From Nitrospinota bacterium (GTDB lineage: Bacteria > Nitrospirota > Nitrospiria > Nitrospirales > UBA8639): 40,002 nucleotides of DNA. Positions 33,644 through 40,002 of the stretch are shown here, one piece after another (the first letter of the stretch is position 1; every line of letters starts with the position of its first letter). Below the pieces are notes generated by a model, which was given only the letters and a program-made list of their open reading frames with translations, ran no database searches and was not told the DNA's origin. The stretch covers positions 1-40,002 of the forward strand of contig JACZVJ010000013.1 of the NCBI GenBank assembly GCA_022572725.1, given 5' to 3'. The translations under genes were made by a program, and so were the position numbers.

Positions 33644-34156
33644 CTATTCAGTGCCCCCTCTCATCATGAGAGGATGGTTCAAAAACCACATCTCGTACAA
33701 GGGAATGACGAACATCACCAGAAAGCTCATGACCATGAGGAGGTCTCCCGTCAACAACGTCACCACAAATAAGGGTGAAACATAGGTAATGAGCCAGGGG
33801 GAGGCCACGTCCAGCGTTACCCCGAGAAACGAGGCCCAGGCGATGAGGACTTTTACCGTGGGGCTGGCCATGGTGAGATAGAGCACATGCACCATGATAA
33901 GAAACACCACCGGCATCGTAAACAAATGAAAATGGGTTACTTCAGCTAACTGGCCAAACGACATGGGCTCCCCAAAATTGGCATCAGAGCCGCGGTAATG
34001 AGCGGCAATTCCTTTGGGTGTAAGATCCGTCATGCTGTGAGCCCAAAAAAACGAAAAGACAAATCCAGCTAACATGAGGAGAAGGAACCAGGTGTATACC
34101 AACCGGATGTGGCGGTCAGTGTCTCGCAGGCGAAACCGGGTGTTGAAATTCCGCAT
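33644..34156 (-). CDS. Predicted four-helix inner-membrane protein with conserved-looking histidines
   Basis: I do not recognise the family. The 170 residues give four hydrophobic segments: about 17-39 (LVYTWFLLLMLAGFVFSFFW), 76-97, 101-123 and 126-153. Histidines lie at helix ends or inside helices: H16, H40, H75, H77 (THFHLF), H90 and H161. That layout would suit b-type heme binding in a small cytochrome-b-like bundle, but it is not proof. The gene follows the FMN-binding protein by 17 bases on the - strand and is probably its membrane electron partner. Confidence 0.75.
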   Translation of the reverse strand: MRNFNTRFRLRDTDRHIRLVYTWFLLLMLAGFVFSFFWAHSMTDLTPKGIAAHYRGSDANFGEPMSFGQLAEVTHFHLFTMPVVFLIMVHVLYLTMASPTVKVLIAWASFLGVTLDVASPWLITYVSPLFVVTLLTGDLLMVMSFLVMFVIPLYEMWFLNHPLMMRGGTE

Positions 34157-34173: not shown

Positions 34174-34935
34174 TTAAAGCCCTAAAAGGGATTCAAAAAA
34201 CCCCTTTTCACTGCTCCCATTTGCCATGATATGACTGCCCAGACCCAGGGGCTTGAGGTAAAACTCATTGACCAGCACGAGGGCGCGTTTGACGCCGGCG
34301 CTTGCGGAACGGACTGACATAGTCGCACCGGTGATATTAATGATGTCCCTGTTGATCCGGATCGGATCCTGAACGGTTTTTCCCTCGTATTGGTAATTGA
34401 AACGCTTTCTGACGATTTCATTACCGCGCGACTCACGGTAGACGAGCACTTCAAAATTTGTGACCTGGCCCGTCCTGTCAATCCCCACCATATAGGTGAT
34501 CGGCCGGTATTTGCCAATGGTATTTTGGATAATGGCGTACCCATCGGTCTTGCCATTGGTCTCGCCAAGGAAGACTTCAAAAGAGTCTTCTGGAAACTCC
34601 CATCCGATGTACGAGATCACCAAGGCTTTCTGCTCAGGGGTGAGTCGGATGACCTCCATCCGAATCCGCTCCGAGTCCGGAAACATGAGCTTGGCAGCTT
34701 GCTCCTCCGTGAGATACACTTCGATGTGTCCGATGTCTTCCTGAGTGAGCCATCGCTTCACTTCATCATCCCAGATGAGTTCGGGCTCCTCCTCTCTTTC
34801 CTCCCTTTCTTCTCTTTCCTCAGTTTCTTCACGGTCTTCGGAGGCCAGTAGAGAGGGAACGGGAAGAAAGACCAGCAGGAATAAGATCCCAATGGTCAGA
34901 CTCAAGGCCTCCGTCAAAAGCCTTCTGGTTAACAT
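34174..34935 (-). CDS. Exported FMN-binding (flavinylated) protein
   Basis: The 253-residue product has an N-terminal signal/anchor (about 10-31) and a Glu/Arg repeat (residues 33-50). Next is a segment starting TEEQAAKLMFPDSERI, and then an FMN_bind domain with GYAIIQNTIGKYRPITYMVGI and D-x4-ITGAT (D197 to T205). In RnfG/NqrC-type proteins ApbE joins FMN by a phosphoester to the last Thr/Ser of this motif, here Thr205, outside the cytoplasm. ApbE lies close by at 37851. It overlaps the upstream lipoprotein gene by 7 bases. Likely role: electron carrier between membrane and periplasmic or outer-membrane partner. Confidence 0.88.
   Translation of the reverse strand: MLTRRLLTEALSLTIGILFLLVFLPVPSLLASEDREETEEREEREEREEEPELIWDDEVKRWLTQEDIGHIEVYLTEEQAAKLMFPDSERIRMEVIRLTPEQKALVISYIGWEFPEDSFEVFLGETNGKTDGYAIIQNTIGKYRPITYMVGIDRTGQVTNFEVLVYRESRGNEIVRKRFNYQYEGKTVQDPIRINRDIINITGATMSVRSASAGVKRALVLVNEFYLKPLGLGSHIMANGSSEKGFFESLLGL
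34786..34830 (-). repeat. Purine-rich 9-bp repeat coding Glu-Glu-Arg units
   Basis: On the - strand, three to four imperfect 9-base units of the type GAGGAAAGA encode EER triplets just after the signal peptide of the FMN-binding protein. The tract could act as a charged spacer. Slipped-strand length variation in frame would be possible. Confidence 0.65.
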
Positions 34936-35372
34936 CCTCTGTTTTTCAACCTCTTCTCAATCCGTTCGGCTAATCGAGCTTCCTCATCTTGGTGGGGGGG
35001 GACCCGACGCCATTCTCGGTATCGCACCCCCATGGGGGACCATGTTTCCCGGAACTGTTGGACCGCCACCGAAGCTCCCTGGGCCTGTGGTTCCACATCG
35101 ACGATGAACCGGACTCGTTCTTTGTTGACATCTCGTTGGAACGCACCGGCTTTTGTTGTTGCTTGCACCGTGAGCCAGGATGTTTCGATGACGCCCTTGG
35201 CATCGTCAACGTGGTCTAAGTCGAACTCCTCAAGCGAAGCCAAGGCCACACTCCAGGCCTGGTCAAACGGGCAGTGGGTAGTCACCTTAGGGGAACCCAA
35301 AAACCCGATGCACCCTGCGTAAACACCGGCGGTCAAGATCAAAAGACTCATTCGCCACAGATGAGGGGTCAT
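34929..35372 (-). CDS. Putative lipoprotein, function unknown
   Basis: This is a 147-residue protein with a short signal and lipobox VYAGC (Cys21). The mature part reads CPFDQAWSVALASLEEFDL, then VIETSWLTVQATTKAG and VRFIVDVEPQAQGASVAVQQ. The pattern of a 'conversion of each residue pair into an alpha/beta sandwich' resembles BamC/NlpB-like lipoprotein domains, but I would not name it. It lies between the porin and the FMN-binding protein, overlapping the latter by 7 bases, so it is in the same operon. It could tether or organise the complex in the periplasm. Confidence 0.75.
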   Translation of the reverse strand: MTPHLWRMSLLILTAGVYAGCIGFLGSPKVTTHCPFDQAWSVALASLEEFDLDHVDDAKGVIETSWLTVQATTKAGAFQRDVNKERVRFIVDVEPQAQGASVAVQQFRETWSPMGVRYREWRRVPPHQDEEARLAERIEKRLKNRGC

Positions 35373-35534: not shown

Positions 35535-37043
35535 TTAGAAATAGGTAGCCACAGAGAACTGCCACCCATTGTTCCGGCCCGGATTATCGGATGGAGCCTC
35601 GGTATCCGTCGATCCGGCCTCCTCGTCATTGAAGGTGTAGCCGATCTTGAACACGGTGTCCTCGATTGGTCTGAAGTTGCCTCCTAGAGTCAGCCGCTTG
35701 AAATCTGAACGGTTGATGGAGCTATCGGTATTGGTGTCCGCCTCTCCATAACGAATGACGGCCGTGAAGGTCGAGGCGTCCGTAAAGTGCGTTGGGGCCA
35801 TCCGTTTCAGAAACGCGGGCATGAAATGATAATTCCCCTGCACGTAAAAGCCGGCCATATTGCGCGGTGGGGTGCCAGCGGTAGTTGGTCCAGACGGACC
35901 ATCTCCATCTGGGTCGAATGTTCCAGTAATTCCAGCTGCTGAGGGGGCCCCATCTCCACCTTCAATGTGCGCCCATGCTGATTCACCGATAATTTCAAAC
36001 GGTCCGCGCTGGAGGGACCAATCCACGGCCGTGATGGTCAAGTCCTTGTCGCCGGCGTCGTCCCATTTCCCGTGGTGAATAGAACCCCCTATTTCCACTC
36101 CGAGGAACGGGCTCACTGCAACACGGGCCAGGATCGACTTGCTTTGGTTGTTATCCGTCTTCTGGCTTCCCTTGGATTTACTCACCCCGTCCGCCTCTGA
36201 GAACAATTCTTTTGTTTCTCCGTCAAACCCATTGACAACATAAACCTCGTAATCCACTTTCGACAGACGGGTAGGGTAAAAGGTTCCGTACAATCCAAGC
36301 CCGGATTCGGACAAGGTGGACGGAATGATGAACCTGCTAACCAGGGGCCGGTGCGTGAGGTCATTGAGGGGAGAGTCATGGAGCAGGTTAAAGCGGCCGA
36401 GCGGACTCAAAAGGATTCCGGCGCGAAAGTTCACCCAGTCCTCGATCAAGTAGTCGAATGTAGCGAACTCGACCTTGACCTCTCCATCGCCCTGGTTGTT
36501 GTCCGTCCCCCCGTGTTCGAATTCAATTTCCGCGGCGACCTGAATGCGGTCCGTGACATTCGAGTAGATAAAGGGGATAAATCGCACCTGATCGAACTCG
36601 AGCCCCTCGGAGCAATCCTTGGCCGAGCCGTTACAATCCGTCACCTCAAAGTCCATGTAGCCGCCTAAGACGGCCTTGGGAGATTTGACGAACGGTTTGG
36701 CGTAAATCGTCCTACCGCCTAGCAGGGTTCCGCCTCCTGTGAAGGCCTCAGGACCAGGTTTATCCGATGACGGAGGAAATGGAGTCAGGCCTCCACTCTT
36801 CCTCATTTCTTCCATTCTCATTTCTTTAATCATTTTTTGAATGGCTTCTCGCTGCTCCGGAGTAAATTCGTCATTCCCGTCTGCCCAAGCCCCGGTTTGC
36901 AGAAGGGCTGTCAGGACCACAAGAGCCCCCAGAAAAAACCATTTTCTCCTCGGACCTCCTCCAACAAGTTGATTGGAGACTCGGGGGTCCTCTGGAGTAC
37001 TACTAGGATTCAGATGGTCCTCGATTATTGGAGCCTCAACCAA
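35535..37043 (-). CDS. Outer-membrane beta-barrel porin-like protein
   Basis: The 502-residue product has a signal peptide with n-region RRK, core FFLGALVVLTALL and likely cleavage after TGAWA. A short Met/Glu-rich helix follows (IQKMIKEMRMEEMRK), then alternating amphipathic strands to a terminal aromatic (VATYF), the mark of barrel insertion. The overall look is of phosphate-selective-porin-like or general porins; the substrate is unknown. The start is uncertain: TTG 37043 has AGGAGG ten bases upstream, while ATG 37154 lacks a ribosome site and lies inside another frame. It is the first large gene of the - strand module. Confidence 0.8.
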   Translation of the reverse strand: MVEAPIIEDHLNPSSTPEDPRVSNQLVGGGPRRKWFFLGALVVLTALLQTGAWADGNDEFTPEQREAIQKMIKEMRMEEMRKSGGLTPFPPSSDKPGPEAFTGGGTLLGGRTIYAKPFVKSPKAVLGGYMDFEVTDCNGSAKDCSEGLEFDQVRFIPFIYSNVTDRIQVAAEIEFEHGGTDNNQGDGEVKVEFATFDYLIEDWVNFRAGILLSPLGRFNLLHDSPLNDLTHRPLVSRFIIPSTLSESGLGLYGTFYPTRLSKVDYEVYVVNGFDGETKELFSEADGVSKSKGSQKTDNNQSKSILARVAVSPFLGVEIGGSIHHGKWDDAGDKDLTITAVDWSLQRGPFEIIGESAWAHIEGGDGAPSAAGITGTFDPDGDGPSGPTTAGTPPRNMAGFYVQGNYHFMPAFLKRMAPTHFTDASTFTAVIRYGEADTNTDSSINRSDFKRLTLGGNFRPIEDTVFKIGYTFNDEEAGSTDTEAPSDNPGRNNGWQFSVATYF

Positions 37044-37116
37044 TTGTAGGTTGCCTCCTACTGTAAATTGGATTAGCTCCTCGGTTTTCCAAAAATTCTT
37101 TGTCCCCTTTGACCTC

Positions 37117-37291
37117 CTAATTGGCAGGGCAGGGCTGTATAGTCCCTGCAGCATGCTCGATACTTGTAGAGGGAATAGAGATGATCCGCTTGCAACGATT
37201 GCATTTCAGTTCTACCCCCTTCGCGGCGGAGTTTTGTCACTAGTTGGCCGCAGTGGCACCGGGCCTCATTGTATTGAGGTTGGGGTGGCAT
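37117..37291 (-). pseudogene. Com-like zinc-ribbon small protein, frameshifted
   Basis: From ATG 37291 the - strand reads MPPQPQYNEARCHCGQLVTK and LRREG. If one G of the five-G run at 37215-37219 is skipped, it continues VELKCNRCKRIISIPSTSIE, then HAAGTIQPCPAN to a TAG at 37119-37117. The joined product has CHCG...CNRC, the two-knuckle pattern of Com-type (Mu Com-like) zinc ribbons. As the sequence stands the frame is broken. It may be a pseudogene, an assembly error or a +1 frameshift site. It sits in the leader of the porin operon. Confidence 0.55.
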
Positions 37292-37312
37292 ATTTTCATC
37301 ATGGAAAATGAG

Positions 37313-37335
37313 TATTATTTTCGTTTAAAATAATA
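37313..37335. promoter_or_regulatory. Perfect 9-bp inverted repeat (operator-like)
   Basis: TATTATTTT (37313-37321) and AAAATAATA (37327-37335) are exact complements separated by CGTTT. It lies just downstream of the - strand promoter and close to the Fur-like box, in A+T-rich DNA unlike the neighbourhood. It could be a second regulator site. Confidence 0.6.
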
Positions 37336-37342
37336 TGATTTT

Positions 37343-37361
37343 GAGAACCATTCTTATTATC
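37343..37361 (-). promoter_or_regulatory. Fur-box-like operator
   Basis: On the - strand the 19 bases read GATAATAAGAATGGTTCTC. Compared with the classical 19-bp Fur consensus GATAATGATAATCATTATC, 14 positions match, with the first hexamer perfect. It overlaps the -10 element of the - strand promoter, so bound Fur would block transcription of the porin/flavoprotein genes when iron is plentiful. Binding is inferred. Confidence 0.6.
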
Positions 37362-37850: not shown

Positions 37851-38864
37851 ATGAATAGAAACCTTGTAGTCACAATCTTAATGGTTTTTTGTTGTCTGGA
37901 GTTGATGCTGGGGTGCACCTTAAGCACTCATACGGTAAGGCGAAGTCAGATGCTTATGGGCACGCTGGTGTGGGTTACGGCAGTCGCACCGGATGAGGAG
38001 CGTGCTCAAACAGCGACGGCGGCGGGTTTTGCCGAGATTCGGCGTGTGGAGGAATTGCTGAGCACCTGGATTCCCACTAGCGAGCTATCTCAGGTGAATG
38101 CCGCTGCTGGCAGTTCACCGGTGAAGGTTAGTCCAGAAACGATGGAGGTTCTGGAGCGCTCGCTGGAGATGGCGCGACTGACCGCGGGGGGATTTAATAT
38201 TGCCATTGGTCCGGCTGTGGCGGCCTGGAATGCGAGCGAGAAAGGTCGCATACCCTCAGATGAGGAATTGAATAGCCTCCGATCCTTAATCGATCTTTCC
38301 AAGGTTCATTTGGACAAGGACAAGGGTACGGTCTTTTTGGCCCTTCCTGGGATGCAAATCGATGTCGGGGGAATCGGAAAGGGCTATGCAGCGGATTTAG
38401 CGGCGGCAGTGATGCAGGCAGCGGGTGCCTCTGCCGGGGTGGTGGCCATCTCGGGGGACATCAAAACTTTCGGACGACTGCCGGATGGCCAACGGTTTCG
38501 GTTTGGAATCCAGCACCCCCGAAAGGAGCAAGGGGAACTGATTGCCAGTTTAGCGTTGGAAAACGAGGCCGTTTCAACGGCAGGTGATTACCAGCGGTTT
38601 TTTATAAAGGATGGGATTCGTTACCACCATATTCTGGATCCCACGACTCTTCAGCCGGCACGCTTGTCTCAGAGTGTCACGATTGTGGCCCCTGAAGGTA
38701 CGATGGCGGATGGCTTGGATACTGGGATTTTTGTTATGGGTGCTGAGAAGGGCCTGGCTTTGATTGAGCGGCTTCCCGGTGTGGAGGGTCTTATCATCGG
38801 GAGGGATGGGGAAATCTTCGTCTCTTCAGGCCTCCAAGGCCGTTTGGAATTTGAGCTGAATTGA
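37851..38864 (+). CDS. apbE: FAD:protein FMN transferase ApbE (lipoprotein)
   Basis: The 337-residue enzyme moves FMN from FAD to Thr/Ser of target proteins in the periplasm. It has a lipoprotein signal with lipobox LMLGC (Cys22). ApbE motifs in order are SQMLMGTLVWV, the DVGGIGKGYAADL flavin/Mg motif, VAISGDIKTFG, the AVSTAGDYQRFF and YHHILDPTTLQPA segments, and GTMADGLDTGIFVMGAEKG with the metal-binding Asp. AGGTGG lies three bases before ATG 37851. Its natural target is the TGAT protein encoded at 34174-34935 on the other strand. Confidence 0.94.
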   Translation: MNRNLVVTILMVFCCLELMLGCTLSTHTVRRSQMLMGTLVWVTAVAPDEERAQTATAAGFAEIRRVEELLSTWIPTSELSQVNAAAGSSPVKVSPETMEVLERSLEMARLTAGGFNIAIGPAVAAWNASEKGRIPSDEELNSLRSLIDLSKVHLDKDKGTVFLALPGMQIDVGGIGKGYAADLAAAVMQAAGASAGVVAISGDIKTFGRLPDGQRFRFGIQHPRKEQGELIASLALENEAVSTAGDYQRFFIKDGIRYHHILDPTTLQPARLSQSVTIVAPEGTMADGLDTGIFVMGAEKGLALIERLPGVEGLIIGRDGEIFVSSGLQGRLEFELN

Positions 38865-38885: not shown

Positions 38886-39569
38886 CTAATCTTGGTCTTT
38901 TCCCTTTCCGTGTGGGGAAGACCCTCCGGAGTGTCCTTTCATTCTCTCTCCCCCGTGGGCCTTCATGCGCTCATGGACAGCCTTCATTCGTTTCCGTTGT
39001 TCGTCTGTGAGAACCCCTTGGGCATCCCGGCGTGTTTTGATGGAGGCCATATAAAGATCCGCCCGGAGTGCGTGGACAGTTTTCAGTTTGGATTCAATGT
39101 CAGTGAGGCTTGCCTTATCGTCTCGCAGTAATTCATGGAGGTCAAGACTGGCTAACTCCACTTCGGCGTTCAATTTGATTTGGGTTTTTTTGAAAGAGGT
39201 TTGAAGGGCCCGAAGTTGGTTTTCCTGCTCCTCGGTAATACTCATCCCCTCTTTGAATTTTAGAATGTGCTGAATGAATTTGCTGGCGCTTTGATGAGGT
39301 CCGGAATGGCCGGTTCCATGGCTTCGAGAGCCTACCCCGGAATGCCCGGAATATCCTTTACTAGGGTGGCCGCCATGGGAGGAAGAGCCCTGATGGGGAG
39401 AGCCATGCCCCATAAGTCTCTTTCCGTGCTGCCCAAATTCTCCATCTGACTTTCCCGGTTTGTAGTCTTTGGAATCAGCCCATCCTGGTATCGTCATGAT
39501 CAACAGGATTGCACTTCCGAATAAGAATGCGGAAAGCCACGAAAAGGATGGGGGGGTGTGAAGCCTCAT
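38886..39569 (-). CDS. Spy/CpxP-type LTXXQ periplasmic protein with His-rich region
   Basis: This 227-residue protein has a signal peptide (core LFGSAILLIMTIPG, cleavage near GWA). A Ser/Gly/His-rich stretch follows (residues about 50-95, many HG, HS and HP pairs). A helical domain comes next, with GMSITEEQENQLRAL and QGVLTDEQRKRMKAVHERMK, holding the LTxxQ motif. Family members (Spy, CpxP, ZraP) are chaperones or metal/stress sensors in the periplasm. The His-rich part suggests binding of Zn, Cu, Ni or Co. The start ATG 39569 has a strong AAAGGAGG seven bases away. It converges on apbE. Confidence 0.85.
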   Translation of the reverse strand: MRLHTPPSFSWLSAFLFGSAILLIMTIPGWADSKDYKPGKSDGEFGQHGKRLMGHGSPHQGSSSHGGHPSKGYSGHSGVGSRSHGTGHSGPHQSASKFIQHILKFKEGMSITEEQENQLRALQTSFKKTQIKLNAEVELASLDLHELLRDDKASLTDIESKLKTVHALRADLYMASIKTRRDAQGVLTDEQRKRMKAVHERMKAHGGERMKGHSGGSSPHGKGKDQD

Positions 39570-39722: not shown

Positions 39723-40002
39723 TCAAGACCTGGATTTTTCGAATAACACCGTATGGGTGGCAGTGAGGTTCAACTCCACCGCGGCATCGATGGGGTAGAC
39801 CGTGGTTGAGTGTTCACTGCAGTGGACAGTATGGCCGGAGGCGAGGCGAATGGTGTAAAGGTTTTCTGACCCTCGAAACTGCCTTGATTCAATACGGGCT
39901 GTCCCCTTGCCTGTCGACCTTATCTGAACGTCATCCGGGCGGACCATGCCCAGGACTTGGGGGTCCCCTTGGTACTCCACCGCTTTAGGGAATTCCCCAA
40001 TC
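39723..40002 (-). CDS. ABC transporter ATP-binding protein, C-terminal TOBE domain (partial)
   Basis: The frame is open to the right edge on the - strand. The visible part reads LGEFPKAVEYQGDPQVLGMV, then RPDDVQIRSTGKGTARIESR, and ends TVLFEKSRS. The RPxDV-Q element followed by a small beta-barrel is the C-terminal TOBE domain of ATPases of the Fe3+/spermidine/sulfate importer group. The nucleotide-binding domain lies outside the window, so the substrate cannot be told. Proximity to the Fur-like site makes ferric iron an attractive guess only. Confidence 0.75.
   Translation of the reverse strand, partial: IGEFPKAVEYQGDPQVLGMVRPDDVQIRSTGKGTARIESRQFRGSENLYTIRLASGHTVHCSEHSTTVYPIDAAVELNLTATHTVLFEKSRS

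Follow-up and report, generated by a model that had tools for sequence, protein, structure and literature searches.

A four-helix membrane protein of Nitrospirota encoded with ApbE and an FMN_bind protein: a candidate electron-transfer partner at an iron-associated locus

Genes and features of the locus

The window, which is the whole stretch of 40,002 nucleotides analyzed here, contains a gene for a membrane protein with four helices (4TM protein) that closes a conserved operon comprising the genes for a zinc-ribbon protein, a porin, a lipoprotein, an FMN_bind protein and the 4TM protein itself (Table 1). The reading frame is a real gene, well above chance, since it is matched across many Nitrospirota loci and genomes. 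In Nitrospirales the gene order is nearly always porin, lipoprotein, FMN_bind, 4TM, with apbE encoded divergently. A His/Gly-rich periplasmic LTXXQ (Spy/CpxP-like) protein is encoded between FbpC and apbE (38886-39569, minus strand) and is conserved in many relatives.

Table 1. Positions of genes, codons and Fur-box-like sites in the window
Feature	Position	Strand	Remarks
4TM membrane protein	33644..34156	-	ATG start, 170 aa
D116 codon, helix 3, near-invariant	33809..33811	-	alignment of homologues
H90 codon, helix 2, cytoplasmic end (predicted side)	33887..33889	-	alignment of homologues
H75-F76-H77 codons, helix 2, periplasmic part (predicted side)	33926..33934	-	alignment of homologues
Y54 codon, short periplasmic helix (predicted side), invariant	33995..33997	-	alignment of homologues
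FMN_bind (RnfG/NqrC-like) periplasmic protein	34174..34935	-	PF04205, E 2.8e-8
Small lipoprotein, NlpB/DapX-like (below cut-off)	34929..35372	-	profile search and conserved neighbourhood
Outer-membrane porin, weak Porin_O_P match	35535..37154	-	true start probably downstream of 37154
Small zinc-ribbon gene, Com-like CxCG..CxxC	37117..37291	-	frame-broken near 37215-37225
Second Fur-box-like site GAAAATGAGTATTATTTTC, 14/19	37304..37322	+	best site of the scan in the window, p 0.018
Fur-box-like site GATAATAAGAATGGTTCTC	37343..37361	-	matched by eye to Nitrospira orthologue site GATATTAATAATCGTTCTC
ApbE flavin transferase	37851..38864	+	PF02424, E 1.1e-82
FbpC-type ferric ABC ATPase, C-terminal piece (TOBE-like)	39723..40001	-	cut by contig end at 40002

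In 63 of 73 related loci the zinc-ribbon gene is intact and separates the porin gene from the Fur-like site; intact copies (for instance L053 5072-5146, L117 and L119) follow the pattern RCxCGxLxAK...KCKRCKR. The protein has no Pfam match above the cut-off, its likeness to phage Com being sub-threshold, and is possibly a regulator of the operon.

Flavinylation genes

The first-pass annotation had placed the 4TM gene beside a flavoprotein gene, and the profile searches agree: the FMN_bind gene stops 17 nt before the 4TM start, and apbE belongs to the same cluster. The FMN_bind protein carries a TGAT flavinylation motif (Thr205, codon 34321-34323), so that the cluster combines ApbE with an FMN_bind substrate bearing [ST]GA[ST], the gene criterion for an ApbE-flavinylated system. 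Profile searches found a single FMN_bind protein and a single ApbE in the genome, both encoded at this locus. The [ST]GATMS stretch is invariant in the FMN_bind partners, [ST]GAT being present in essentially every locus.

The FMN_bind gene is located directly upstream of the 4TM gene, at a distance of -22 to 125 nt, in 67 of the 73 loci of the order with enough upstream sequence, and it is the next gene upstream in the remaining ones with available sequence. In Nitrospiria relatives (L114, L116, L117, L124-L126) the 4TM gene follows an ApbE-FMN_bind fusion, and a cupredoxin gene may come next. Genome-wide profile searches detected no PepSY_TM, Ferric_reduct or NqrB/RnfD protein in this genome, and DUF4405 gave a single match below the cut-off, away from the 4TM locus. 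These gene neighbourhoods support the assignment of the 4TM protein as a membrane partner of a flavinylated protein, as had been suggested.

Iron context

Relatives of the locus hold a full-length FbpC gene at the position of the fragment at the contig end. The operon adjoins ferric ABC transporters of the FbpB/FbpC type: genes of the FbpC/AfuB type are located upstream in the same layout throughout the order, and FbpC, AfuB or Fur was found in 33 of the 44 loci having at least 7 kb of upstream sequence. In more distant relatives, Fur, FTR1 or Fbp genes lie on either side of the locus, and one related locus (L053) adds ExbB, ExbD and TonB. Pfam searches confirmed the identities of ABC/TOBE, permease, ExbB, ExbD, TonB, FTR1 and FUR, and a profile scan for P19 (PF10634) gave no match among six proteins of the window and ten from related loci. 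Related loci repeatedly have a 19-base Fur-box-like site in the interval separating apbE from the porin gene; it reached p<=0.05 in 35 of the 52 loci when compared with shuffled sequence, and most Nitrospira carry one near-identical form of it.

Structure and distribution of the 4TM family

The 4TM protein had been described as a four-helix membrane protein, and both the translation and an AlphaFold2 model based on 38 homologues confirmed this. The model is confident and helical (mean pLDDT 88.8, pTM 0.81), with four long helices at residues 15-43, 67-93, 99-125 and 128-157 and a short helix at 47-55. In the translation, the HFHLF stretch corresponds to residues 75-79 and VHVLYL to residues 89-94; further histidines are H16 and H40. 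We infer that the N-terminus is located inside and loop 1 in the periplasm, because the N-terminus is rich in arginine and longer relatives carry a CxxCH insert within loop 1. On this topology, H75 and H77 would lie on the periplasmic side of helix 2 and H90 on its cytoplasmic side.

Apart from the cytochrome c insert in the longer branch, neither the 4TM protein nor its homologues gave a meaningful sequence match in Pfam, NCBIfam or the PDB. The first-pass annotation could not place the protein in the PepSY, DUF4405 or MsrQ type families, and hmmscan bears this out: PepSY_TM (PF03929) and DUF4405 (PF14358) were unmatched by the protein and its 25 aligned homologues, and the MsrQ/ferric reductase transmembrane family (PF01794) by the protein and its homologues. 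A Foldseek search of the PDB with the model yielded no convincing match (best E 2.6), and no known electron-transfer fold was recovered with Foldseek or VIA-align. The top VIA-align hits, PsbQ-like four-helix bundles (Z 8.1), were rejected since the arrangement is generic. A literature search found no published description of the family. Judged by sequence, the 4TM protein is thus a new family of membrane partners and falls into none of the described classes.

Eighty loci on other Nitrospirota contigs encode proteins with 70-86% identity to the 4TM protein, and a match was present in 153 of 396 sampled Nitrospirota genomes. Most sampled Nitrospirales genomes carry a homologue (57-86% identity); identity drops to about 30% within the class and to 20-35% elsewhere in Nitrospirota. 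Outside the phylum, plasmid searches returned a single relative, a degenerate fragment next to Ni-Fe hydrogenase genes on a Sulfurovum plasmid (L134 4890-5216).

A branch of 236-271 aa contains the CxxCH (cytochrome c) insert in loop 1. This sister branch includes L111, L112, L118, L122, L146, L150 and others. At L112 the insert-bearing 4TM gene is followed by a cytochrome c gene and by one for an outer-membrane protein with CxxCH. At L122 (3928-5849) a short 4TM paralogue, a motif-less FMN_bind-like protein and a cytochrome c-insert 4TM protein are encoded in one operon, which comes after a heavy-metal P-type ATPase gene. Other membrane proteins were noted as well: widespread proteins of 132-198 aa with the motif HSHLNMLGW, which resemble a single arc of four helices in haem-copper oxidase subunit I (L190-L209), and COX1-like proteins of 430-450 aa in Nitrospirales with three HxH-type repeats, HTHAALVGG, HIHLNILGF and YTHMALIGF (L137-L139).

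Conserved residues

None of the 122 distinct full-length homologues departs from H75 or H77; residue counts exclude one truncated Sulfurovum fragment. Y54 is likewise invariant, and D116, W121 and W157 are nearly so. The distribution of H90 follows the partner protein. Together with H75 and H77 it is present in 102 of 102 distinct homologues with an adjacent FMN partner bearing [ST]GA[ST], and also in five more whose partner could not be scored because of a contig edge, a broken gene or a missed ORF. All 16 relatives that have a cytochrome c insert or a motif-less partner lack it; these comprise 14 cytochrome c-insert sequences without a flavin partner and those beside the motif-less FMN_bind-like protein. 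The association of H90 with the flavin partner is a correlation, not a proof, and may reflect a single ancient split between clades. At the level of a single residue, it predicts which members are flavin-linked and which carry the cytochrome c insert.

Histidines of both helix 1 and helix 2 had been proposed as haem ligands. For helix 2 the conservation stands, with no loss of H75 or H77 in any homologue nor of H90 in flavin-linked members, and the haem itself is putative. H16 and H40 are ruled out as ligands because they are not conserved: 21 of the 88 orthologues within the order have Q in place of H16, and beyond the order neither residue is conserved. Helix 2 is the sole helix with invariant histidines. 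A bis-His haem within one monomer is unsupported and unlikely for this reason; a haem would require a dimer, or else the site would be non-haem.

Proposed function

We propose, with a probability of about 0.5, that the 4TM protein belongs to a Fur-linked iron-assimilation system, in which it would be the electron-transfer partner, in the inner membrane, of a periplasmic protein carrying covalent flavin. The adjacent FMN_bind protein would receive its FMN from ApbE. Electrons drawn either from the quinol pool of the membrane or from the cytoplasmic side would be passed by the 4TM protein to this FMN, through a site that combines Y54 and D116 with the HxH at the periplasmic end of helix 2. The FMN would in turn reduce ferric iron or one of its chelates in the periplasm, supplying the adjacent transporter. 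The direction of electron flow, iron as the acceptor and the identity of the cofactor are predictions here: the protein probably feeds the flavin of its partner with electrons, possibly through a haem on the invariant histidines. The sister branch speaks for a redox role, since its members carry their own c-type haem in loop 1, on the same membrane side, in place of the flavin partner. A point against this proposal is that Fbp transporters import iron in the ferric form and have no obvious need for its prior reduction. Nitrospirota include the main nitrite oxidisers, with a high iron demand.

The 4TM core could plausibly bind haem. H90, close to the cytoplasmic face, would be an additional site that flavin-linked members alone require, and together with H75/H77 it could give a transmembrane path with two sites, the simplest form being haem b between the protomers of a dimer. 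The fully specified version is tentative and, taken as a whole, somewhat unlikely: a homodimeric four-helix cytochrome with its ligands on one helix only (HxH and H90) would serve as a haem wire that links a flavinylated iron reductase to the quinol pool or the cytoplasm as its electron source, and the sister branch would have swapped the flavin partner for a c-type haem.

Alternative explanations

The main rival, which we regard as unlikely, is a quinol site without haem. Here the periplasmic cluster of HxH, D116 and Y54 would bind and deprotonate menaquinol, the docked FMN would be reduced directly, and H90 would have a structural or proton role. Such a site would agree with the invariant polar cluster, which the modelled helix positions put in one leaflet, with the single His-bearing helix and with an FMN partner on the same membrane side; direct transfer from quinol to flavin would, however, be unusual in the periplasm. 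The cytochrome c-insert relatives, which keep the HxH without H90, are compatible with either model. The same polar residues could instead conduct or hold iron. His, Asp and Tyr are good iron ligands, and in the iron-gene context HxH, D116 and E/Y residues might form a channel or chaperone for Fe2+/Fe3+ freed by the flavin protein. We consider this distinctly improbable: a dedicated Fbp or FTR1 transporter already adjoins, the cytochrome c-insert relatives indicate redox chemistry, and the FMN-linked H90 would be left unexplained.

Strict gene adjacency would also be expected of a cofactor-free protein that anchors the FMN protein or ApbE or helps to assemble either, yet the invariance of His and Asp within the membrane exceeds what an anchor needs, and the cytochrome c-insert branch occurs without a flavin partner, making such a role very unlikely. 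The faintest chance is given to a distant, single-arc relationship with haem-copper oxidase subunit I, in which an HxH on helix X binds two haems. VTHFHLFTMPVVF of the 4TM protein resembles, in motif and position, the oxidase motif VAHFHYVLSMGAVF; HSHLNMLGW occurs in 135-aa Nitrospirota proteins, and a chain of the mycobacterial respiratory supercomplex appeared as a low-ranking fold match (VIA-align Z 5.1). Profile-profile comparison with the COX1-like proteins was not significant (P 0.019, uncorrected), and the alignment to the small HxH proteins was misregistered (P 0.048), so that the likeness of HFH to helix X is a lead only. DUF2871, considered as a relative on account of the HxH motif, was dropped as the profile comparison was not significant.

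Comparison with known systems

The combination of ApbE, FMN_bind, iron genes and Fur is a known kind of system (PMC8238504). PepSY-like and MsrQ-like flavinylation-linked cytochromes are, like the 4TM protein, encoded with ApbE/FMN_bind and often linked to iron uptake and Fur (eLife 2021, PMC8238504; mSystems 2024, PMC11334425). Their haem sites use two conserved histidines each, whereas all invariant histidines of the 4TM protein are located in one helix and the sequences do not match. DUF4405 is also a small membrane protein encoded near apbE (PMC11334425), from which the 4TM protein differs in having no Pfam match to that family. The FMN_bind partner shares similarity with RnfG and an SGAT-type motif with NqrC/RnfG, but the membrane core of Nqr/Rnf, NqrB/RnfD, is absent from this genome. 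The P19/FTR1 iron assimilation clusters with FMN_bind (PMC8238504) are similar in that FMN_bind and FTR1 occur together in some 4TM relatives; in contrast to them, the 4TM loci have no P19 among the scanned neighbours, mostly an Fbp ABC transporter, a dedicated membrane partner and a porin.

For the small membrane protein FezC, haem sites formed by homodimerization were proposed from a model (PMC11334425), which is a published precedent for reading the 4TM protein as a haem-binding dimer. Flavinylation surveys found clusters without a recognised membrane electron donor (PMC8238504). If our proposal is true, the 4TM family supplies this donor for the flavinylation clusters of Nitrospirota and makes the donor question directly testable.
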